Made by a program: the position numbers and the translations under genes. From Burkholderia pyrrocinia (GTDB lineage Bacteria > Pseudomonadota > Gammaproteobacteria > Burkholderiales > Burkholderiaceae), in contig NZ_CP094459.1 of assembly GCF_022809715.1 (NCBI RefSeq), positions 2,356,001 to 2,420,000 of the forward strand: DNA of 64,000 nt, read 5' to 3'. Shown one piece after another: positions 21,969 to 31,761 of the stretch. How positions within the stretch are numbered: position 1 is the first letter of the stretch; the number at the start of each line of letters is the position of its first letter. The notes beneath the pieces were generated by a model. The model was not told where the DNA came from and did not search any database. It saw nothing but the letters and a program-made list of their open reading frames with translations.

Positions 21969-22265
21969 GGATTCCTCTTCTGATTGTGTCATGTGGTGAT
22001 TCGACTATAACGGCAAGCACCATCCCCGCATATTTCAAGTTTGTAAGAACTGATGCGCGGCATCGCAACGGGAAGCGTGCGCTAACGTCTTGTAACAATC
22101 GGCGCCGGCCGGCCCTCGCCGCGACCGTTCCTAAAACATCTTTCATCCTGGTCCGCGCCCGGCGTTAAGCGGCGCCACGCACACTGCGCGAGCCGAACCG
22201 GGTTCCCGCCACGCTTCGGCACCTCGCTGACAGGCCGGCGCCCCGCGCCGGCGGAGACCTCGCCG
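21969..22265. promoter_or_regulatory. Divergent control region between the Pro-rich protein and the RND operon
   Basis: 297 bases without a gene. It holds two TTGTAA-containing elements, TTTGTAAG at 22040-22047 and CTTGTAAC at 22089-22096, about 50 bases apart, and a single TTCATC half-site at 22142-22147 like those found near the two-component genes at 28-31 kb. No clear sigma-70 promoter was found. Confidence 0.3.
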
Positions 22266-25200
22266 ATGCTGAAACTCGTCCGACTCGCGCTCGCGCGCCC
22301 CTACACCTTCATCGTCCTCGCGCTGCTGATCCTGATCGCAGGACCGCTCGCGGCACTGCGCACGCCGACCGACATCTTTCCCGACATCCGGATTCCGGTC
22401 ATCAGCGTCGTGTGGAACTACGCGGGCCTGCAGCCGGCCGACATGTCGGGGCGCATCGTCACGTATTACGAACGCACGCTCGGCACCACGGTCAACGACG
22501 TCGCGCACATCGAGTCGCAGTCGTTCCGCAGCTTCGGGATCGTCAAGATCTTCTTCCAGCCGAGCGTCGACATCCGCACGGCCACGGCACAGGTCACGTC
22601 GATCTCGCAGACCGTGCTCAAGCAGATGCCGCCCGGCACCACGCCGCCGCAGATCCTCAACTACAACGCGTCGACCGTGCCCGTGCTGCAGCTCGCGCTG
22701 ACGAGCGACACGCTCAACGAGCAGCAGCTCGGCGACTACGCGACCAACGTGATCCGGCCGCAGCTGCTGTCCGTCGCGGGCGTCGCGATTCCGTCGCCGT
22801 ATGGCGGCAAGATACGCCAGGTGCAGATCGACCTCGATCCGCAGGCGCTGCAGGCGAAGGGGCTGTCCGCGCAGGACGTCGCGACCGCGCTCGCGCAGCA
22901 GAACCAGATCATCCCGGCCGGCACGCAGAAGATCGGCCGCTTCGAATACAACATCCGGCTCAACGACAGCCCGCTGACGATCGACGAGCTCAATGCGCTG
23001 CCGATCCGGACCGTGAACGGTGCAGTGATCTTCATGCGCGACGTCGCGCACGTCCGCGACGGTTTTCCGCCGCAGGGCAATATCGTGCGCGTCGACGGCC
23101 GCCGCGCGGTGCTGATGAGCGTGCTGAAAAGCGGCTCGGCGTCGACGCTCGACATCATCGCCGGCGTCAAGGCGCAGTTGCCGCGCGTCGAGGCGACGCT
23201 GCCGCCGTCGCTCAGGCTCGTCGTGATGGGCGACCAGTCCGTGTTCGTCAAGGGCGCCGTGAGCGGCGTGGCGCGCGAAGGCCTGATCGCCGCCGCGCTC
23301 ACCTCCGCGATGATCCTGCTGTTCCTCGGCAGCTGGCGCTCGACGCTGATCATCGCCGCATCCATTCCGCTCGCGGTGCTGGCGGCGATCGCCGCACTCG
23401 CCGCCGCGGGCGAGACGCTCAACGTGATGACGCTCGGCGGGCTCGCGCTCGCTGTCGGCATTCTCGTCGACGATGCGACCGTCACGATCGAGAACGTCAA
23501 CTGGCATCTCGAACAGGGCAAGGACGTGCGCAGCGCGATCCTCGACGGCGCGTCGCAGATCGTCGCACCGGCCTTCGTGTCGCTGCTGTGCATCTGCATC
23601 GTGTTCGTGCCGATGCTGCTGCTCGACGGCGTGGCCCGCTTCCTGTTCGTGCCGATGGCCGAGGCCGTGATCTTCGCGATGATCGCGTCGTTCGTGCTGT
23701 CCCGCACGTTCGTGCCGATGATGGCCCGTTACCTGTTGCGGCCGCATGCCGCGCATCCGGCGGCCGTGCTCGCGCCGCACGGCGCACCGTTCCCGCCATC
23801 GCGCGCACGCAATCCGCTCGTCGCGTTCCAGCAGGGGTTCGAGCGCCGCTTCGCGGCACTGCGCGCAGGCTATCGTGTCGTGCTCGGCCTCGCACTCGCC
23901 CATCGCGCACGCTTCGTCATGCTGTTCCTCGCCGCGGTCGCGCTGTCGTTCGTGCTGGTGCCGTGGCTCGGCCGCAACTTCTTCCCGTCGGTCGACGCGG
24001 GCGAAATCGCGATCCACGTGCGCGCACCGATCGGCACGCGCATCGAGGAGACCGCCGCGCTGTTCGACCGCGTCGAGCACACGGTGCGCGGCGTCGTGCC
24101 GCCGCACGCGCTCGCGAGCATCGTCGACAACATGGGTTTGCCGAACAGCGGGATCAACCTCACGTACAGCAACAGCGGCACGATCGGTCCGCAGGACGGC
24201 GACATCCTCGTGTCGCTCGCGGGCGACCACGCGCCGACGGCCGACTACGTGAAGCGGTTGCGCACCGTGCTGCCGCACGCGTTTCCGGGCGTGGCGTTCT
24301 CGTTCCTGCCCGCCGACATCGTGAGCCAGATCCTCAACTTCGGCGCGCCCGCGCCGATCGACGTGCAGGTGACCGGCCCCGACCGTGCCGCCAACCGCGC
24401 CTATGCGACCGAGCTGCTGCGGCGCATCCGGACGGTGCCGGGCGTCGCCGACGCGCGCGTGCAACAGGCGTCGACCTATCCGCAGTTCACGGTATCGGTC
24501 GACCGCGCACGCGCCGCGCAGCTCGGCATCACCGAGCAGGATGTCACCAACGCCGTGGTGGCGAGCCTGTCCGGCACGAGCCAGGTGTCGCCGACCTACT
24601 GGCTCGATCCGCACAACGGCGTGTCCTATCCGATCGTCGCGCAGACGCCGCAGTACCGGATGACGTCGCTGTCGGACCTGCGCGCGCTGCCCGTCACGGG
24701 CCGCTCGGGCGCCCCGCAACTGCTCGGCGGCCTCGCGACGATCGTGCGCGGCCAGACCGACGCGGTCGTGTCGCACTACGACATCGCGCCGCTGTTCGAC
24801 ATTTTCGCGACGACGCAGGGCCGCGATCTCGGCGCGGTCAGCACGGACATCGACCGCGTGCTGCGGGCGAGCGCCGCCGACCTGCCGAAGGGATCGCGCG
24901 TGACCGTGCGCGGCCAGGTGCAGACGATGAACAGCGCATTCGGCGGGCTGCTCGCCGGCCTCGCCGGTGCGGTCCTGCTGATCTACCTGCTGATCGTCGT
25001 GAACTTCCACTCGTGGCGAGACGCGTTCGTGATCGTGAGCGGACTGCCCGCGGCGCTCGCCGGCATCGTCTGGATGCTGTTCGTCACACGCACGCCGCTG
25101 TCGGTCCCGGCGTTGACGGGCGCGATCCTGTGCATGGGTGTCGCGACCGCGAACAGCATCCTCGTCGTGACCTTCGCGCGCGAACGGCTCGCACACACCG

Positions 25201-25484
25201 CCGACGCGGCCGTCGCCGCGCTCGAGGCCGGTTTCACGCGCTTTCGGCCCGTGATGATGACGGCGCTCGCGATGATCATCGGCATGGCGCCGATGGCCCT
25301 CGGTCTCGGCGACGGCGGGGAACAGAACGCCCCGCTCGGTCGTGCGGTCATCGGCGGCCTGCTGTGCGCGACCGTCGCGACGCTGGTGTTCGTGCCCGTC
25401 GTGTTCAGCCTCGTCCACCGGCGCGATCGCGCGCCCCGCTCCGAATCCCTGTCCCTCACTCCGGGAGAACAACATGTCCACTGA
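22266..25484 (+). CDS. RND-family efflux permease (HAE-1 like)
   Basis: A 1072-residue inner-membrane RND pump component, the full length for this family. There are twelve expected membrane segments; the first is near residues 12-30 and the central cluster follows ~340. The TM4 proton-relay Asp pair is intact in VGILVDDATVTIENVN. Periplasmic porter segments include TPTDIFPDIRIPVISVVWNY and YPQFTVSVDRARAAQLGITE. The sequence resembles multidrug-type pumps rather than CzcA metal pumps, but the substrate cannot be read. First gene of a three-gene operon; its end overlaps the adaptor start by 11 bases. Having the permease before the adaptor is less common than the reverse. Confidence 0.93.
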   Translation: MLKLVRLALARPYTFIVLALLILIAGPLAALRTPTDIFPDIRIPVISVVWNYAGLQPADMSGRIVTYYERTLGTTVNDVAHIESQSFRSFGIVKIFFQPSVDIRTATAQVTSISQTVLKQMPPGTTPPQILNYNASTVPVLQLALTSDTLNEQQLGDYATNVIRPQLLSVAGVAIPSPYGGKIRQVQIDLDPQALQAKGLSAQDVATALAQQNQIIPAGTQKIGRFEYNIRLNDSPLTIDELNALPIRTVNGAVIFMRDVAHVRDGFPPQGNIVRVDGRRAVLMSVLKSGSASTLDIIAGVKAQLPRVEATLPPSLRLVVMGDQSVFVKGAVSGVAREGLIAAALTSAMILLFLGSWRSTLIIAASIPLAVLAAIAALAAAGETLNVMTLGGLALAVGILVDDATVTIENVNWHLEQGKDVRSAILDGASQIVAPAFVSLLCICIVFVPMLLLDGVARFLFVPMAEAVIFAMIASFVLSRTFVPMMARYLLRPHAAHPAAVLAPHGAPFPPSRARNPLVAFQQGFERRFAALRAGYRVVLGLALAHRARFVMLFLAAVALSFVLVPWLGRNFFPSVDAGEIAIHVRAPIGTRIEETAALFDRVEHTVRGVVPPHALASIVDNMGLPNSGINLTYSNSGTIGPQDGDILVSLAGDHAPTADYVKRLRTVLPHAFPGVAFSFLPADIVSQILNFGAPAPIDVQVTGPDRAANRAYATELLRRIRTVPGVADARVQQASTYPQFTVSVDRARAAQLGITEQDVTNAVVASLSGTSQVSPTYWLDPHNGVSYPIVAQTPQYRMTSLSDLRALPVTGRSGAPQLLGGLATIVRGQTDAVVSHYDIAPLFDIFATTQGRDLGAVSTDIDRVLRASAADLPKGSRVTVRGQVQTMNSAFGGLLAGLAGAVLLIYLLIVVNFHSWRDAFVIVSGLPAALAGIVWMLFVTRTPLSVPALTGAILCMGVATANSILVVTFARERLAHTADAAVAALEAGFTRFRPVMMTALAMIIGMAPMALGLGDGGEQNAPLGRAVIGGLLCATVATLVFVPVVFSLVHRRDRAPRSESLSLTPGEQHVH

Positions 25485-26649
25485 ATTCGAAATCCGTCCC
25501 CCCGGTACGCCGCGCTACCTGAAGCCGCTCGCGATCGCGAGCGTGATCGCCGCGCTCGCCGCCGCGGCAGCCGGCCTCGTCGCACGCGCGCACGACGCGC
25601 GCGCGATCGCCGCGTGGACCGCGCAGCAGGCGATCCCGACCGTCGCGACGGTCGCGCCGCAGCCGGCCGCCGCCGATGCGCTGGTGCTGCCCGGCCGCCT
25701 CGATGCGTATGTCGACGCACCGATCTACGCGCGCGTGCCCGGCTACCTGCATGCGTGGTACGCCGACATCGGCGCGCACGTCAAGGCCGGCCAGTTGCTC
25801 GCGTCGATCGACACGCCCGATCTCGACCAGCAGCTGCAGCAGGCACGCGCCGACCTGCAGAGCGCGAACGCGAACGAGCGGCTTGCGGCCGTCACGGCCG
25901 CGCGCTGGGCCGAGATGCTCGCACAGGATTCCGTGTCGCGGCAGGAGGCCGACGAGAAACGCAGCGACCTCGACGCCAAACGCGCGGCCGTCGCGGCAAG
26001 CACCGCCAACGTGCGGCGGCTCCAGGCGCTCGAATCGTTCAAGCGGCTCGCCGCGCCGTTCGACGGCGTCGTGACCGCCCGCAAGACCGATGTCGGCGCA
26101 CTGATCGACGCGGGCAGCGGCAACGGCGCCGAACTGTTCACCGTCTCGGACGCACGGCGGCTGCGGCTCTACGTGCACGTGCCGCAAGACGATGCGGGCG
26201 CGATCCGGGCGGGCATGCACGTCGCGCTGAGCGTGCCCGAACGCCCGGGCGCGACGTTCGACGCCACGCTCGCGGATTCCGCGCAGTCGATCGATCCGGC
26301 TTCCGGCACGCTGCTCGCGCAGTTCTCGATCGCCAACCCCGCAGGCACGCTGTTCCCGGGCGAATATGCGCAGGTGCGAATCGCAGTGGCCGATGCCGCG
26401 CATGCGCTGACGATTCCCGCAAGCGCGCTGATCTTCCGCCACGACGGGTTGCAAGTCGCCGTACTCGACGCGAGCGGGCATGCGCGGCTGCGCAACGTAT
26501 CGATCGCGACCGATCTCGGCACGCGCGTCGAGATCGCATCGGGGCTCGCAGCCCGCGACCGCGTGATCGACAATCCGCCCGATTCGCTCGCGGACGGCGA
26601 CCCCGTGCGCATCGCGAGCGCCGCGACGATGGAGCGTGCGCATGGCTGA
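25474..26649 (+). CDS. RND efflux periplasmic adaptor (membrane fusion protein)
   Basis: A 391-residue adaptor linking the RND permease to the outer-membrane channel. An N-terminal membrane anchor spans ~18-40. The lipoyl/barrel-sandwich halves are GYLHAWYADIGAHVKAGQLL and RLAAPFDGVVTARKTDVGAL. An alpha-helical hairpin (~120-185) contains DLQSANANERLAAVTAARWA. A beta-barrel and membrane-proximal domain follow (LFPGEYAQVRIAV). The start at 25474 has GGGAGA upstream and overlaps the permease gene by 11 bases, indicating translational coupling. The gene overlaps the outer-membrane factor by 8 bases. Confidence 0.93.
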   Translation: MSTEFEIRPPGTPRYLKPLAIASVIAALAAAAAGLVARAHDARAIAAWTAQQAIPTVATVAPQPAAADALVLPGRLDAYVDAPIYARVPGYLHAWYADIGAHVKAGQLLASIDTPDLDQQLQQARADLQSANANERLAAVTAARWAEMLAQDSVSRQEADEKRSDLDAKRAAVAASTANVRRLQALESFKRLAAPFDGVVTARKTDVGALIDAGSGNGAELFTVSDARRLRLYVHVPQDDAGAIRAGMHVALSVPERPGATFDATLADSAQSIDPASGTLLAQFSIANPAGTLFPGEYAQVRIAVADAAHALTIPASALIFRHDGLQVAVLDASGHARLRNVSIATDLGTRVEIASGLAARDRVIDNPPDSLADGDPVRIASAATMERAHG

Positions 26650-28057
26650 CCGTCTGCTCGCCGGGTTGCTGGGCAGCGTCGCCCTGCTCGCCGGCTGTTC
26701 GCTGGCGCCGGCCTATCGCGCGCCGGCCGTTCCGCTTCCGGCCGCCTTTCGCGAAACGGGCCCGTGGGTCGATGCCGCGCCGGCCGACCGCCTGCCGCGC
26801 GACGGCTGGTGGCGCGTATACGGCGACACGACGCTCGACCGGCTCGAGCCGCTCGTCGCGCGTGCGAACCCCGACCTCGCCGCCGCCGTCGCGCGGCACG
26901 ACGAAGCCACCGCGCTGTTCGACGAGGCGCATGCGGCATTGCTGCCGACCCTGGGCATCGATGCCGAGACCGACCGCGACCGGCAATCCGCGCGCCGGCC
27001 GCTGCGAGGCAGCGGCCAGCCCGACATCTACGAGTCGAACACGCTCGAAGCGGGGCTCGGCTACGACGTCGATCTGTGGGGCAAGGTCCGCAACACGGTC
27101 GCGGCCGGCCGCGACGACGCTCAGGCGGCCGGCGACGACCTCGCCTCCGTCCGGCTCAGCCTGCAGGCCGCCGTCGCCAGCACCTATTTCGATCTCGCGG
27201 GGCTCGACCGCGAAGCGGATACGCTGGCGCAAACGATCGACACGTACCGCCGCGCGTGGCAACTGACGGTCAGCCGCCATCGCGGCGGCCTCGCATCGGG
27301 ACTCGACGTTTCGCGTGCGCAAACCCAGCTCGCGCTCGCACAGGCGCGCGCGTCCGACATCGCCGCGCGCCGTGCGCTCGACGAGCACGCGATCGCCGCG
27401 CTCGTCGGCGTATCCGCGTCGACGTTCTCGCTGCCGCCCGTCGCCGCGCTGCCGCGCGTTCCGTCGATTCCGACCGGATTCGCGTCGACGCTGCTCGAAC
27501 GCCGCCCGGACATTGCCGCCGCGGAACGCCGCGTCGCGGCCGCGAACGCACGGATCGGCGTCGCGCGCGCCGCGTATTTCCCGGACCTGTCGCTCGGCCT
27601 CGACGCCGGCTTCCAGAGCGACACGTTTTCGCCGTGGCTCGCCGCACCGAACGAGATCTGGTCGATCGGGCCGCGCCTCGCGATGACGCTATTCGATGGC
27701 GGCCTGCGCGCCGCCGGCGTACGCAAAGCCCGTGCGCAGTTTGCCGAACAGGGTGCGCGCTACCGGGCCATCGTGCTGCAGGCGTTTCGTGAAGTCGAGG
27801 ACGATCTCGCGCTGCTGCACCGCCTTGGCGACGAATCCGGCCAGGACGACGCGGCGCTCGTCGCGGCCCGGCATTCGCTTGCGCTTGCGATGTCGCGCTA
27901 TCGCGACGGTGCCGTCAGCTATCTCGACGTGGTCACCGCGCAGACGACCGAACTCGATACGCAGATCGCGTCGCTCGATGCCGATGCGCGACGCCTGCAG
28001 GCATCCGTCGGGCTCGTGCGCGCGCTCGGCGGCGGCTGGCGCGACGCGCGTTCATGA
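26642..28057 (+). CDS. Outer-membrane efflux lipoprotein (NodT/OprM family)
   Basis: A 471-residue TolC-like outer-membrane factor anchored as a lipoprotein. The signal peptide MADRLLAGLLGSVALLAGC ends in lipobox LAGC with Cys19. It has the family duplication of helical repeats, with YDVDLWGKVRNTVAA in the first half and the LLERRPDIAAAERRVAAANA signature in the second. The ATG at 26642 has GGAG seven bases upstream and was preferred to a GTG at 26636. It completes the tripartite pump. The last bases overlap an inverted repeat (28053-28070) that may control the next gene. Confidence 0.94.
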   Translation: MADRLLAGLLGSVALLAGCSLAPAYRAPAVPLPAAFRETGPWVDAAPADRLPRDGWWRVYGDTTLDRLEPLVARANPDLAAAVARHDEATALFDEAHAALLPTLGIDAETDRDRQSARRPLRGSGQPDIYESNTLEAGLGYDVDLWGKVRNTVAAGRDDAQAAGDDLASVRLSLQAAVASTYFDLAGLDREADTLAQTIDTYRRAWQLTVSRHRGGLASGLDVSRAQTQLALAQARASDIAARRALDEHAIAALVGVSASTFSLPPVAALPRVPSIPTGFASTLLERRPDIAAAERRVAAANARIGVARAAYFPDLSLGLDAGFQSDTFSPWLAAPNEIWSIGPRLAMTLFDGGLRAAGVRKARAQFAEQGARYRAIVLQAFREVEDDLALLHRLGDESGQDDAALVAARHSLALAMSRYRDGAVSYLDVVTAQTTELDTQIASLDADARRLQASVGLVRALGGGWRDARS

Positions 28058-28070
28058 ACGTTTCTTCATC
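28053..28070 (+). promoter_or_regulatory. Candidate operator B upstream of the DUF4148 gene
   Basis: CATGAA-CGTTTC-TTCATC, an inverted repeat with a 6-base spacer located ~100 bases upstream of the DUF4148 gene at 28168 and overlapping the stop of the efflux lipoprotein gene. It matches the repeat at 31331-31348 in 11 of 12 arm bases. Confidence 0.4.
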
Positions 28071-28167: not shown

Positions 28168-28410
28168 ATGAAGACATCGATATTCGCCATCCTCCTCTCC
28201 GCCCTCTGCGTCGCGCTGCCCGGCCGGGCCGGCGCAACGCAGCCCAACGCGGCCACCGCGCCGCAGACGCCCGCACCGTCGTCGCCACACGCTGCATGGA
28301 ATACGCCGCAGGCAACGCCGCTGACGCGTGCGCAGGTCTATCGCGAACTCGTCCATGCCGAACGCGACGGCCAGCTCGCGCAACTCAATCGCGAACTCTA
28401 TTCGCACTGA
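28168..28410 (+). CDS. Small secreted DUF4148 protein
   Basis: An 80-residue exported protein. The signal peptide runs to about residue 23 (ALPGRAGA), followed by a Pro/Ala-rich stretch. The DUF4148 core is LTRAQVYRELVHAERDGQLA with LNRELY near the end. DUF4148 proteins are abundant small envelope proteins of Burkholderiales with no established function. The ATG has AAAGGA upstream. It lies 110 bases after the RND operon and is convergent with the two-component operon. A second DUF4148 gene sits on the other side of that operon (31465). Confidence 0.87.
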   Translation: MKTSIFAILLSALCVALPGRAGATQPNAATAPQTPAPSSPHAAWNTPQATPLTRAQVYRELVHAERDGQLAQLNRELYSH

Positions 28411-28483: not shown

Positions 28484-29149
28484 TCATGCGCCCGAGTCGA
28501 ACCTGAACCCGAATCGCGCAACCGTTTCGATGCGCGCGGAAAAGGCGTGCGCGGCCAGCTTGCGCCGCAGCCGGACGACCAGCGCATTGACCGTTTCGGG
28601 TTCGATGTCGGCATCGCCCCATGCGTAACGCAGCACGGCATCGCGCCCGACCGGTCGCCCCGATGCGCGCAGCAGGCATTCGACGAGACGGAATTCCCGT
28701 GCGCTGAGCGCCAGCCTCCGGCCCCCCTCTTCGAGGGCGCGCGTCGCCGTGTCGAGCCGAACCGACTCGCGCATCTCGATGACGCCTGCGCGGCGCCACA
28801 GCGCGCGCAAACGCTCGTGCAATTCCACGAACGAACACGGATGGGCAAGGCACACGTCGCAGCCGGCCTGCAGCATCCGTGCGCGCTGTGTCGGTGTTGC
28901 ACCGGCGACGATCGCGGCGATCGTCGCGCCTGCGGCCGATCCGGCGAGTCGCGGCAATGCATCGAGGACCGCCGGGCCGTCAGCCGCGTCGGGCGCAACG
29001 ATCACGATTGCATCGAACCGGTCCTGCGTCGCCGCGAAGCAGCCGTCGCGCCATTCCCCGACGCGCTCGACGCCGTGTGTGCTCTCGCGAAATGCCTTGT
29101 CGAGCCGCGCCGCCTCCGGATGCGGCTGAGCAATCAGCAGGATGCGCAT
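28484..29149 (-). CDS. Atypical OmpR-type response regulator with degenerate receiver
   Basis: A 221-residue protein with a receiver-like N-terminal domain (~1-118) and an OmpR-type winged helix (~125-220: LALSAREFRLVECLLRASGR, then VNALVVRLRRKL and RFGFRFDSGA). Aligned with the neighbouring response regulator, every phosphorylation-site residue is replaced. The acidic pair at 8-9 is Gln-Pro, the phospho-acceptor Asp51 is Val (DAIVIVAPDAADG), the switch Ser is Ala82, and the Lys is His103 (LAHP). It should therefore not be controlled by aspartate phosphorylation. It is the last gene of the two-component operon, 19 bases after the kinase gene. DNA binding looks intact. The ATG at 29149 was chosen because the receiver fold starts there. 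Confidence 0.88.
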   Translation of the reverse strand: MRILLIAQPHPEAARLDKAFRESTHGVERVGEWRDGCFAATQDRFDAIVIVAPDAADGPAVLDALPRLAGSAAGATIAAIVAGATPTQRARMLQAGCDVCLAHPCSFVELHERLRALWRRAGVIEMRESVRLDTATRALEEGGRRLALSAREFRLVECLLRASGRPVGRDAVLRYAWGDADIEPETVNALVVRLRRKLAAHAFSARIETVARFGFRFDSGA

Positions 29150-29168: not shown

Positions 29169-30560
29169 TCATGCCAGCGAGCGCGGCCAGCATTCGACCG
29201 TAATCGCCGCACCAGCCGGCTGCGCATCGCCGATCCGCAGCGCGAAACCGTGCACGTGCATCACCGCCGATACGATGCTCAACCCGAGCCCCGAGCCTTT
29301 CACATGACGCGTATGCTCGCCGCGATAGAAGCGTTCGAGCACCGCGTCGCGCTCGCCGGGCGGGATGCCGGGCCCGGTGTCCTCGAACCGGACGAGCGGG
29401 CCGCCCGGCGTCGCGCGGAGTACGGCGCGCACGCGGCCACCCGGCGGCGTGAACTTGATGGCGTTGTCCGCGAGATTGCTGAACGCCTCGAACAGCAATG
29501 CGCGGTCGCCATGAATGCCGTCGACCGGTGCCGCGTCGAGTTCGAACGACACGTCGACGGCTTCGGCGAGCGGCTCGTAGAGTTCGCACACGTCGCGCAG
29601 CAATGCCGCGACGTCGACCACGGCAAAGCCGCCGCGCCGGCTCAGCGTACCGATCTCGGAGATGCGCAGCATCGCGCGAAAGCGCTCGAGCAGCCGGTCG
29701 GTCTCGTCGCGCGCCGACGCCAGCAGCGCCGCCGACGCGGGATCGTCCGCACAAAAAGGCTGCTCGGCCAGTCGCGCCAGCATCGTATGCACGCGCGCGA
29801 GCGGCGTGCGCAGATCGTGCGCGATGCCGTCGCAGGTATGACGCACCTCGCCCATCAGTCGCTCGACTTCGTCGAGCATGTGATTCACGAGATGCGCGAG
29901 CAGGTCGAGCTCGTCGTAGCGGCCGACCGGCAGCCGCTTGCCGAGGTCGCCCTCGGCGATCTGCCGCGTGGCGCGCCGGATCGCGGCGACGCGGCGCATC
30001 TGCCGCATGCCGAGCATGCTGCCGCCCGCGATGCCCGCGACCAGGATCATCACGCCGCCGATCACGAGCCCGCGGATCGCGACATCGCGGATCTGGATGA
30101 AATGCGACAGGTCGCGCGCGACGACCAGCGTCATCCCGTTGTCGCGGCGCACGGCCATCGCGCGCGTGATCGGTGCGGGCTGGCCGTCGAGCAGCACGAG
30201 CGTGCGGTTCAGCGTGCGTCCGGCGCGATCCGTACGCAGCGCGGGCAGCGTCGCGATGTCGCCGGCCACGCGGCGCCCGGCCGCGTCGAACAGCCCGTAG
30301 AAACTCGTATGCAAGTGTTCGTGCTCGAGTCGCCGGTGGATCGCGAGCGGCAACTGGGCATCGGGAATCGAATCGAAATAGATCAATTGCCACGCGAGCA
30401 CCTCGTCGGTGTCGCGCGTCATCGTGTGTGTCGCGGCGACGCTGATCACGCCCGCGAGCAGCAGCAGCGAAACCGAGAAGATCGCCGCATACGCGCACAG
30501 CCAGCGAAACGTCGTCGTATGCCAGCGGCGTGTGAAGTTCGCCGCGCGGGCCGCATCCAT
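29169..30560 (-). CDS. Sensor histidine kinase
   Basis: A 463-residue membrane histidine kinase. TM1 spans ~20-44, a periplasmic sensor ~45-158, TM2 ~161-181 and HAMP ~182-235. The HisKA phospho-acceptor is His248 in GIAHDLRTPLARV. The catalytic domain has NLADNAIKFTPPGG (N box), FEDTGPGIPPGERDAV (G1) and HVKGSGLGLSIVSAV (G2), so it should be active. The periplasmic region has no recognisable sensor domain. It starts 11 bases after the response regulator gene and is followed 19 bases later by the degenerate regulator. The proximity of the RND pump suggests envelope or antimicrobial sensing, which is inference. Confidence 0.94.
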   Translation of the reverse strand: MDAARAANFTRRWHTTTFRWLCAYAAIFSVSLLLLAGVISVAATHTMTRDTDEVLAWQLIYFDSIPDAQLPLAIHRRLEHEHLHTSFYGLFDAAGRRVAGDIATLPALRTDRAGRTLNRTLVLLDGQPAPITRAMAVRRDNGMTLVVARDLSHFIQIRDVAIRGLVIGGVMILVAGIAGGSMLGMRQMRRVAAIRRATRQIAEGDLGKRLPVGRYDELDLLAHLVNHMLDEVERLMGEVRHTCDGIAHDLRTPLARVHTMLARLAEQPFCADDPASAALLASARDETDRLLERFRAMLRISEIGTLSRRGGFAVVDVAALLRDVCELYEPLAEAVDVSFELDAAPVDGIHGDRALLFEAFSNLADNAIKFTPPGGRVRAVLRATPGGPLVRFEDTGPGIPPGERDAVLERFYRGEHTRHVKGSGLGLSIVSAVMHVHGFALRIGDAQPAGAAITVECWPRSLA

Positions 30561-30571
30561 CCGTGCCTCCG

Positions 30572-31246
30572 TTACGCGAGCATGTAGCCCGAACCGCGCA
30601 CCGTCTGGATCATCGGGTTCGCGCCGGGCGGGTCGATCTTCTTGCGCAGCCGGCCCATGTGGACGTCGATCAGGTTGGTGCCGGGATCGAAGTGATAGCC
30701 CCACACGGCCTCGAACAGCATCGTGCGCGTGATCGTCTGGCCCGCGTTGCGCATCATGAATTCGAGCACGCGAAACTCGGTCGGCAGCAGCGGAATCTCG
30801 TCGGCGCCGCGGCGCGCGCAGCGCGAAATCAGGTCGAGCTCGAGCGCACCGACCTTCAACAGTGTCTGCTGAGGCACACCCGACGCCTGCCGGCGGCGCA
30901 GCAGCACCTCGATGCGTGCGCTCAGTTCGCCGGAATCGAATGGCTTCGTCAGGTAATCGTCGCCGCCCGCGCGCAGCCCGCGGATGCGCTCGTCGACATC
31001 GCCGAGCGCGCTCAGCATCAGCACCGGCGTATCGATGCCGACCGTGCGCATCGCGGTCAGGATCGCGAGACCGTCTGCGCCCGGCAGCATCCGGTCGAGC
31101 GTGATCGCGTCGTACGATGCACTCATCGCACGCATCATCCCTTCGCGGCCGTTGTCGATCCAGTCGACCTCGAACCCGCGTGCGGTCAGTTCGCCGACGA
31201 TTTCGTTCGCGGTCACCGCATCGTCCTCGACCGTCAGTACTCGCAT
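30572..31246 (-). CDS. OmpR-family response regulator
   Basis: A 224-residue response regulator. The receiver is intact: acidic pair Asp8-Asp9 in TVEDD, phospho-acceptor Asp51 in AITLDRMLPGADG, switch Ser79 and Lys101 in YLTKPFD. The OmpR-type winged helix spans ~127-222, with LLPTEFRVLEFMMRNAGQTI and NLIDVHMGRLRKKID. It begins at MRVLTVEDD (31246). First gene of the regulator-kinase-degenerate regulator operon. Its upstream region is shared with a divergent DUF4148 gene and contains inverted repeats that could be its own binding sites. Confidence 0.95.
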   Translation of the reverse strand: MRVLTVEDDAVTANEIVGELTARGFEVDWIDNGREGMMRAMSASYDAITLDRMLPGADGLAILTAMRTVGIDTPVLMLSALGDVDERIRGLRAGGDDYLTKPFDSGELSARIEVLLRRRQASGVPQQTLLKVGALELDLISRCARRGADEIPLLPTEFRVLEFMMRNAGQTITRTMLFEAVWGYHFDPGTNLIDVHMGRLRKKIDPPGANPMIQTVRGSGYMLA

Positions 31247-31330: not shown

Positions 31331-31382
31331 GATGAAAATAGCTTCATCCGGCGCCGGGGCCAACGCGCGTGAAACATGTTTC
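31331..31382. promoter_or_regulatory. Candidate operator A plus palindrome in the divergent regulator/DUF4148 promoter region
   Basis: A perfect inverted repeat GATGAA-AATAGC-TTCATC lies at 31331-31348 and a 12-base palindrome GAAACATGTTTC at 31371-31382, between the response regulator start (31246) and the DUF4148 start (31465). The first element recurs upstream of the other DUF4148 gene (28053-28070). Confidence 0.45.
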
Positions 31383-31464
31383 ATCCATGCGTCGCCCACC
31401 CGGTCGTGCGCTCCGCCTACGCTGACGTCATGCGGCATCGGGCCGCGAACACAGGAGCCACCGA

Positions 31465-31761
31465 ATGAAACTGTCGACCACCGTCGCCTGCATGCTGCTC
31501 GCATGCGCGAGCACCGCCGCGTTCGCGGCACCGCACCTGACGCCGCAGGAATGCAACGCCTACCCGTTCGTTCACACGGGCCACGAAGTCACCCACTCGG
31601 ACCTCGTGCGCGAGCTGACCGAACTCGAACAGGTCGGCTACGAGCCGGCGCACGCGAGCCCCTACTACCCCGACGATCTCGACGCCGCGAAGGATCGGCT
31701 CGCCGCCGAGTATCGTACGGACTGCACGCATGCGCTGACGGCGGACGCGGGCCCGCACTGA
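31465..31761 (+). CDS. Small secreted DUF4148 protein
   Basis: A 98-residue exported protein. The signal peptide MKLSTTVACMLLACASTAAF is cleaved near FAA-PH. The mature part has HSDLVRELTELEQVGYEPAH, the DUF4148 pattern of an acidic amphipathic helix followed by a Tyr/Pro segment, and two Cys residues (CNAYP and DCTHAL) that could form a disulfide. It diverges from the two-component operon and is convergent with cyo. It probably belongs to the same regulon as the 28168 gene because of the shared inverted repeat. Confidence 0.85.
   Translation: MKLSTTVACMLLACASTAAFAAPHLTPQECNAYPFVHTGHEVTHSDLVRELTELEQVGYEPAHASPYYPDDLDAAKDRLAAEYRTDCTHALTADAGPH

Follow-up and report, generated by a model that had tools for sequence, protein, structure and literature searches.

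A predicted pseudo-receiver regulator of the OmpR family in a kinase cassette of Burkholderia pyrrocinia

We analyzed a stretch of 64,000 nucleotides of Burkholderia pyrrocinia (assembly GCF_022809715.1, contig NZ_CP094459.1, positions 2,356,001 to 2,420,000 of the forward strand; hereafter the window), in which the gene of an OmpR-type regulator of 221 amino acids, RR2 (28484..29149, minus strand), stands behind those of a canonical response regulator (RR1) and a sensor histidine kinase (HK). The best explanation overall, to which we give a probability of about 0.7, is that RR2 is a regulator of the OmpR family that has a true pseudo-receiver and works independently of phosphorylation. We further hold with good confidence that it would serve as the phosphorylation-independent partner regulator of the RR1-HK-RR2 cassette. 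Judging from the aligned sequences, the phosphorylation pocket is abandoned, whereas selection maintains the fold, the DNA-binding domain and a large part of the dimer face; in almost every case, moreover, the gene lies behind an intact kinase. The simplest account is a partner that needs no phosphate, whose dose would be set by RR1 and which would act on DNA alone or together with RR1.

A receiver without its phosphorylation pocket

RR2 was characterized from its translation, Pfam, an alignment to RR1, an AlphaFold model and a family alignment. Set beside RR1 (D8 D9 D51 S79 Y98 K101), its pocket reads Q8 P9 V51 V81 H103: Q8 P9 pair with D8 D9, V51 with D51, V81 with S79 and H103 with K101, and Cys100 occupies the switch position three residues before the conserved Lys (K-3). 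A first reading, made from the letters of the window alone (the sequence-only reading), had described a regulator lacking its phosphorylation site, with Gln-Pro, Val51 and His103 as substitutions, and the alignment bears this out; it had also paired Ser79 with Ala82, which has to be corrected to Val81, neither residue being Ser or Thr. The Pfam scan found the winged helix Trans_reg_C (PF00486) in RR2 at 4.1e-15 (56 bits, cut-off 26.2) and did not match Response_reg (PF00072) there; RR1 was matched by both domains. Some full-length NCBIfam response-regulator models align over residues 1-218 of RR2, well under their cut-offs. The AlphaFold model (predicted local distance difference test, pLDDT, 88) contains a complete receiver and a winged helix, and its best structural match was DNA-bound CosR. 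RR2 has the predicted N-terminal (beta-alpha)5 receiver fold of OmpR/PhoB regulators, lacks the DD, D, T/S and K residues of a phosphorylatable receiver, and is in this sense a pseudo-receiver, that is, a receiver fold without catalytic residues.

The same losses characterize the whole family. The 77 loci read gave 83 distinct RR2 sequences, and none of them has the phospho-Asp (0/83), position 51 being V, M, T, L, C, A and others. The first position of the acidic pair is acidic in 0/83 and the second in 3/83 (one Asp, two Glu); Ser or Thr is found at the T position in 3/83, and Lys at the Lys position in 1/83. The RR1-type neighbours are canonical, with D51 in 86 of 90 distinct sequences (three not covered, one Gly). 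As the phospho-Asp is kept by 0/83 relatives, a local mutation or a sequencing error is ruled out. The comparison across Burkholderia that the sequence-only reading had proposed found the substitutions conserved, and orthologues with the Asp/Lys site did not turn up. Within RR2, omega was 0.20 for the receiver and 0.10 for the DNA-binding domain. Together with the Pfam match and the predicted winged helix, the latter value agrees with the earlier view of an intact OmpR-type DNA-binding domain; the former, with the conserved substitutions and the complete modelled receiver, sustains the suspicion that RR2 is blind to phosphorylation.

In alignment A2, made of 63 thinned RR2 sequences, the five pocket positions had a median entropy of 2.60 bits versus 1.73 bits elsewhere in the receiver (p=0.018), and the twelve positions of the alpha4-beta5-alpha5 dimer face a median of 0.45 bits (p=0.010), seven of them (R89, L93, D98, E109, E112, R113, A116) being at or below 0.45 bits. 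The face was defined by the contacts that PMC4888885 and PMC4773095 give for PhoB, BfmR and KdpE, and some of the PhoB correspondences are assumed. Of the three modes of action that the sequence-only reading had offered (constitutive activity, binding of a ligand, pairing with RR1 on DNA), the last receives indirect support from the partly conserved face, and an RR1-RR2 pair is our tentative proposal, at somewhat less than even odds. A partly retained face also counts in favour of another model, the one proposed for CmrT, according to which RR2 would be a constitutive homodimer with a regulon of its own and the operon would merely set its dose. The stronger constraint on the DNA-binding domain than on the receiver and the match to DNA-bound CosR also speak for this model, which we regard as possible, although we would sooner bet against it. 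The Asp that pairs with the equivalent of R113 in BfmR, kept in RR1, is Ala, Val or Ile in 62/63 RR2, and the loss of this central interface residue is expected to weaken a homodimer. In our view, RR2 is more likely paired with RR1 than a free homodimer.

That RR2 is a decaying duplicate of RR1 appears very improbable. It does evolve faster than RR1 (omega 0.17 versus 0.064), and one of the 83 genes (genome G320, locus L120, 6405-6932), the sole one so flagged, has an internal stop; its open N-terminal piece was counted among the 83 sequences and excluded from A2. However, no internal stop was present among the 23 unique RR2 orthologues of the genus, and with an omega of 0.17 this disfavours decay. 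In a paralogous locus of genome G012, RR1 is broken by a stop and HK was not found, yet RR2 is open. Moreover, both of two quick trees recovered RR2 as a single clade separate from RR1 (support 88 and 95). They were built from thinned rows (at 85% identity, with every second one of the other proteins) and have long branches. Seven rows that were long or odd, an RR2 (L112) among them, were dropped from the second tree, in which RR2 lay on average nearer to the remaining canonical OmpR regulators than to the majority of RR1 rows. An origin of RR2 as a young duplicate of RR1 is thus not supported.

The least explained feature of RR2 is the Cys that nearly every member carries at the switch position. 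The aromatic residue at K-3 (Tyr98 in RR1) is replaced by Cys in 82/83 RR2, whereas other OmpR-type matches have Tyr in 61/67 and Cys in 1/67; in the window, the Cys100 codon lies at 28850-28852 and the residue falls in predicted strand beta5. Cys158 of the DNA-binding domain is kept by 59/63 RR2, and these two are the near-invariant cysteines of the family. Cys100 could thus be a thiol switch, redox or metal, working in place of phosphorylation, and redox control through Cys is described for RitR and HP1021 (PMC12632262). We consider such a switch rather improbable: Cys100 could simply fill the space vacated by the aromatic residue, and the known redox cysteines sit elsewhere (linker; DD+19), where the RR2 of the window has none (no Cys at 122-129, none before residue 37). 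A further OmpR-type regulator, P0041, carries Asp51, one Asp of the acidic pair, no Lys and a Cys at K-3; by its sequence, it is possibly a halfway stage towards RR2.

The RR1-HK-RR2 cassette and its variants

In the window, RR1 (30572..31246; Pfam, alignment), HK (29169..30560; HAMP, HisKA and HATPase_c by Pfam) and RR2 follow each other on the minus strand in a compact order, with 19 base pairs (bp) from the HK stop codon to the RR2 ATG. The place of RR2 as third gene of a two-component operon, claimed at first reading, is thus upheld, and strand and spacing indicate a CmrRST-type layout, in which a response regulator, a kinase and a pseudo-receiver regulator form one operon. Among the relatives of RR2, HK directly precedes RR2 in 74/83 cases, and RR1 precedes that HK in 65/74. 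RR2 is, on the gene order of these loci, a near-constant third member of the signalling cassette. The sequence-only reading had called such an arrangement unusual; within this family it is the rule, and CmrRST is a precedent (PMC12548384).

An RR2-like match was found in 32 of 65 Burkholderia genomes at 1e-30, the other 33 having no match at that cut. In 23 of the 65 the match was 80-100% identical, and all 23 have an adjoining HK (at least 90%) and RR1 (at least 96%). A second, paralogous RR2 (44-47%) occurs in 14 genomes, five of them among the 23; in 13 of these 14 it has a neighbouring HK (56-59%) as well as an RR1 (73-76%), the fourteenth being the G012 locus described above. Profile A1, at 1e-35, matched 76 of 398 Burkholderiaceae genomes in 8 of 25 genera; one of these, G137, groups with canonical regulators, so that at most 75 have RR2. 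Loci were read from 40 of the 48 matching genomes outside Burkholderia (G137 included, 8 unread), and each of the seven other genera yielded at least one RR2. An order-wide search at 1e-40 matched 16 of 399 genomes, three of them Burkholderiaceae; the loci of the remaining 13 were canonical (13/13), so the 1e-40 cut fails to separate RR2 from canonical regulators there. An RR2 family outside the Burkholderiaceae gains no support from these loci.

Nine of the 83 RR2 have no adjacent HK (L054, L099, L102, L103, L107-L111). The L102 copy lies beside its own divergent DUF4148 gene, with a palindrome. At L103 (1-14501), RR2 lies by cytochrome oxidase genes, in a neighbourhood like that of the window cassette; kinase and RR1 were not found nearby, and the same genome carries a full cassette at L083. 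An RR1 homologue of at least 70% was present elsewhere in 5/5 searched genomes of kinase-less RR2, so RR2 does not occur on its own there. At L054 (4259-5695), a paralogous locus, RR1 is broken, the kinase was not found and RR2 is open. Such genes, L102 included, speak for a free homodimer, but the tight linkage to HK in the rest of the family would then go unexplained.

In nine cases the HK preceding RR2 has no RR1 directly upstream. One of these kinases (L117) is a short fragment, and the other eight are full-length members of an HKb-RR2b pair, all eight with H and N boxes; in some RR1-paired kinases, the strict box patterns failed to detect an H, N or G box. Seven of these loci (L074, L076, L077, L079, L080, L118, L119) are doubled cassettes of the order HKb-RR2b-RR1-HK-RR2, in which a single phosphorylatable regulator is joined by two kinases and two pseudo-receiver regulators; in the eighth, L106, HKb-RR2b is followed by RR1-HK and a second RR2 was not seen. 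The frequent position behind a kinase would also fit a role in which RR2 binds to HK and adjusts the kinase or phosphatase activity of that enzyme, DNA binding being secondary. In a distance correlation over 51 cassettes, the partial correlation was higher between RR2 and HK given RR1 (0.49) than between RR2 and RR1 given HK (0.32). However, none of 2000 permutations was as high as either value, and these permutations address each value and not the difference between them. In addition, the DNA-binding domain is the most constrained part of RR2, and RR2 genes without adjacent HK occur, and we therefore consider a kinase-tuning role unlikely. A more speculative and equally unlikely idea is that RR2 proteins would be interchangeable address subunits, each steering RR1 to promoters through its pseudo-receiver partner. 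If so, the two kinases of a doubled cassette would share one phosphorylatable regulator, each with its own pseudo-receiver, and would obtain kinase-specific output from a shared phosphate carrier.

Palindromes and the proposed circuit

An exact ATGAA-N6-TTCAT palindrome lies 85 bp upstream of RR1 (31332..31347) and is a likely RR1 site. A second one, GTGAAACATGTTTCAT, with one mismatch, stands between RR1 and a divergent DUF4148 gene (31369..31384), another exact copy 98 bp upstream of the DUF4148 gene facing RR2 (28054..28069), and a variant, CTAAA-N6-TTCAT, 119 bp upstream of the RND gene (22131..22146). The window has three matches at one mismatch or less versus 0.55 expected, and 2 of 100 shuffles reached three. 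The whole genome has six exact sites and none of the reversed control; four of the exact ones lie outside the window (L155, L156, L157, L158, each at 1501-1516). Across 65 genomes of the genus, with or without the cassette, exact sites number 0-9 per genome and controls 0-1. The exact palindrome precedes RR1 in 24/24 orthologous loci besides the window (22 genomes, two fetched twice) and is found in 43/77 loci overall. Upstream of full-length RND genes, a form within one mismatch of one of three variants was present in 26/28 regions, 118-127 bp before the start, genes under 1700 bits or with less than 150 bp upstream being left aside. Palindromes before RND, DUF4148 and RR1 genes thereby outline a small predicted regulon. 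The CTAAA form with TTCAT was also considered as a heterodimer half-site, which was dropped as symmetric forms occupy the same place in some paralogous pump loci.

The palindrome is most likely the binding site of RR1, and RR2 would then be produced under RR1 control. We propose that HK phosphorylates RR1, which would bind the ATGAA-N6-TTCAT palindromes and raise the expression of its own operon, the DUF4148 genes and the RND pump; for autoactivation, the conserved palindrome upstream of RR1 provides a candidate site. The level of RR2 would climb with the operon, so that its amount would take the place of phosphorylation as input, and RR2 would act through the preserved part of its alpha4-beta5-alpha5 face and through its own winged helix.

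Several observations weigh against this proposal. Five of the twelve face positions (90, 94, 99, 115, 120) are loose, their entropies, in descending order, being 3.25, 2.70, 2.17, 1.24 and 1.01; the nine RR2 without adjacent HK fit a free homodimer at least as well, and one of the 83 genes, that of G320, carries a stop. The recognition helix of RR2, VNALVVRLRRKL, differs from that of RR1, IDVHMGRLRKKI, which suggests a binding site other than that of RR1, so separate RR2 targets may exist. The exact palindrome was found in just 14/48 loci from other genera. As raw counts, a relaxed palindrome (0-2 mismatches, 112-124 bp upstream) also precedes RR1 in 7/8 RR1-HK pairs that have no RR2, L166 being the exception; with two mismatches at most, it occurs as well before 5 of the 12 additional RR1 genes from genomes with RR2. 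Since relaxed forms occur without RR2, a palindrome specific to RR2 was rejected and the palindromes are probably those of RR1. At L167-L170, RR1-like genes without HK match have a two-mismatch form at 143 bp (raw count).

Known systems and the neighbouring pump

The three-gene layout is already known from CmrRST of Clostridioides difficile, the closest known system (PMC12548384 and PMC12632262). Both share the order of response regulator, kinase and pseudo-receiver regulator in a single operon, with two regulators of the OmpR type, the first of them canonical. CmrR binds an inverted repeat in front of the operon that encodes it, as RR1 is proposed to do at its palindrome. For CmrT, homodimers are reported, as are probable heterodimers with CmrR (PMC12548384). 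However, most of the pocket survives in CmrT, where D has become E and DD has become DGD, while T, K and the Tyr at K-3 are retained; by this description it is set apart from RR2, nearly all members of which have lost D, DD, T and K and have Cys at K-3. Unlike CmrRST, the RR1-HK-RR2 cassette spans several genera and usually adjoins an RND pump. Among the matches listed in our literature searches, no publication on this cassette was recognised.

Other atypical regulators resemble RR2 in part. CosR and HP1043 are phosphorylation-independent OmpR regulators, but they are described as essential, HP1043 being an orphan, whereas RR2 belongs to a kinase operon. RitR and HP1021 are, like RR2, pseudo-receivers, and theirs have a functional Cys (PMC12632262), placed in the linker or at DD+19 and not at K-3. 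The WhiI/BldM heterodimer of Streptomyces is a model for the pairing of an atypical regulator with another one (PMC12632262); unlike RR1 and RR2 in their predicted operon, its subunits are not co-transcribed (PMC12548384), and BldM has no known partner kinase. According to a 2025 review (PMC12632262), the switching mechanisms of bacterial pseudo-receivers "remain a mystery"; it discusses CmrRST for a pseudo-receiver inside an otherwise normal kinase operon, and it lists kinase binding, heterodimers and simple dose control as open models. The RR2 family can discriminate between these models, since its cassettes have either one or two kinases and may or may not include a pump, and since some RR2 genes have no kinase next to them. 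Its orthologous, paralogous, doubled, pump-less and kinase-less forms are many natural cases of one arrangement, with candidate binding sites, and thus a natural test set for how "deaf" switches work. The 9,153-sequence set of the same review appears to be derived from PF00072 receivers; as RR2 is not matched by PF00072, pseudo-receivers of its kind may be under-counted.

For Burkholderia, RR2 provides a candidate regulator for an efflux pump locus. The pump genes are on the plus strand and converge on RR2: an RND efflux permease (ACR_tran by Pfam; 22266..25484), a periplasmic adaptor (profile match; 25474..26649), an outer-membrane efflux protein of NodT type (Pfam and profile match; 26636..28057, start codon not fixed) and a small DUF4148 protein (28168..28410). 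A second small DUF4148 protein (31465..31761, plus strand) is divergent from RR1, and the two DUF4148 genes, both assigned from their sequence, flank the pump/cassette system. The vicinity of an RND pump, noticed in the sequence-only reading, proved frequent but not obligate. At the orthologous locus, 17/23 genomes have the pump, the contig of G057 reaching no further than its near end, and 6/23 (G012, G026, G036, G039, G041, G054) lack it while their cassette is intact. G012 retains a remnant of the RND gene, so a deletion removed the pump there; the remaining five yielded just the sequence that precedes the RND start. As a paralogous RR2 locus with a pump exists elsewhere in 5/6 of these genomes, the cassette would do more than serve this pump, or would share its role with the paralogue. 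At L039, L040, L041, L145, L146, L148 and L149, the pump is missing between RR2 and an ABC-transporter gene.

By synteny, the pump of the window would be BCAL2134-2136 (RND-16) of B. cenocepacia J2315. In a table of PMC8300704, the RND-16 pump (BCAL2134-2136) is given with its regulator as not available. Other DUF4148 genes adjoin two-component genes in B. pseudomallei, according to PMC7549894.
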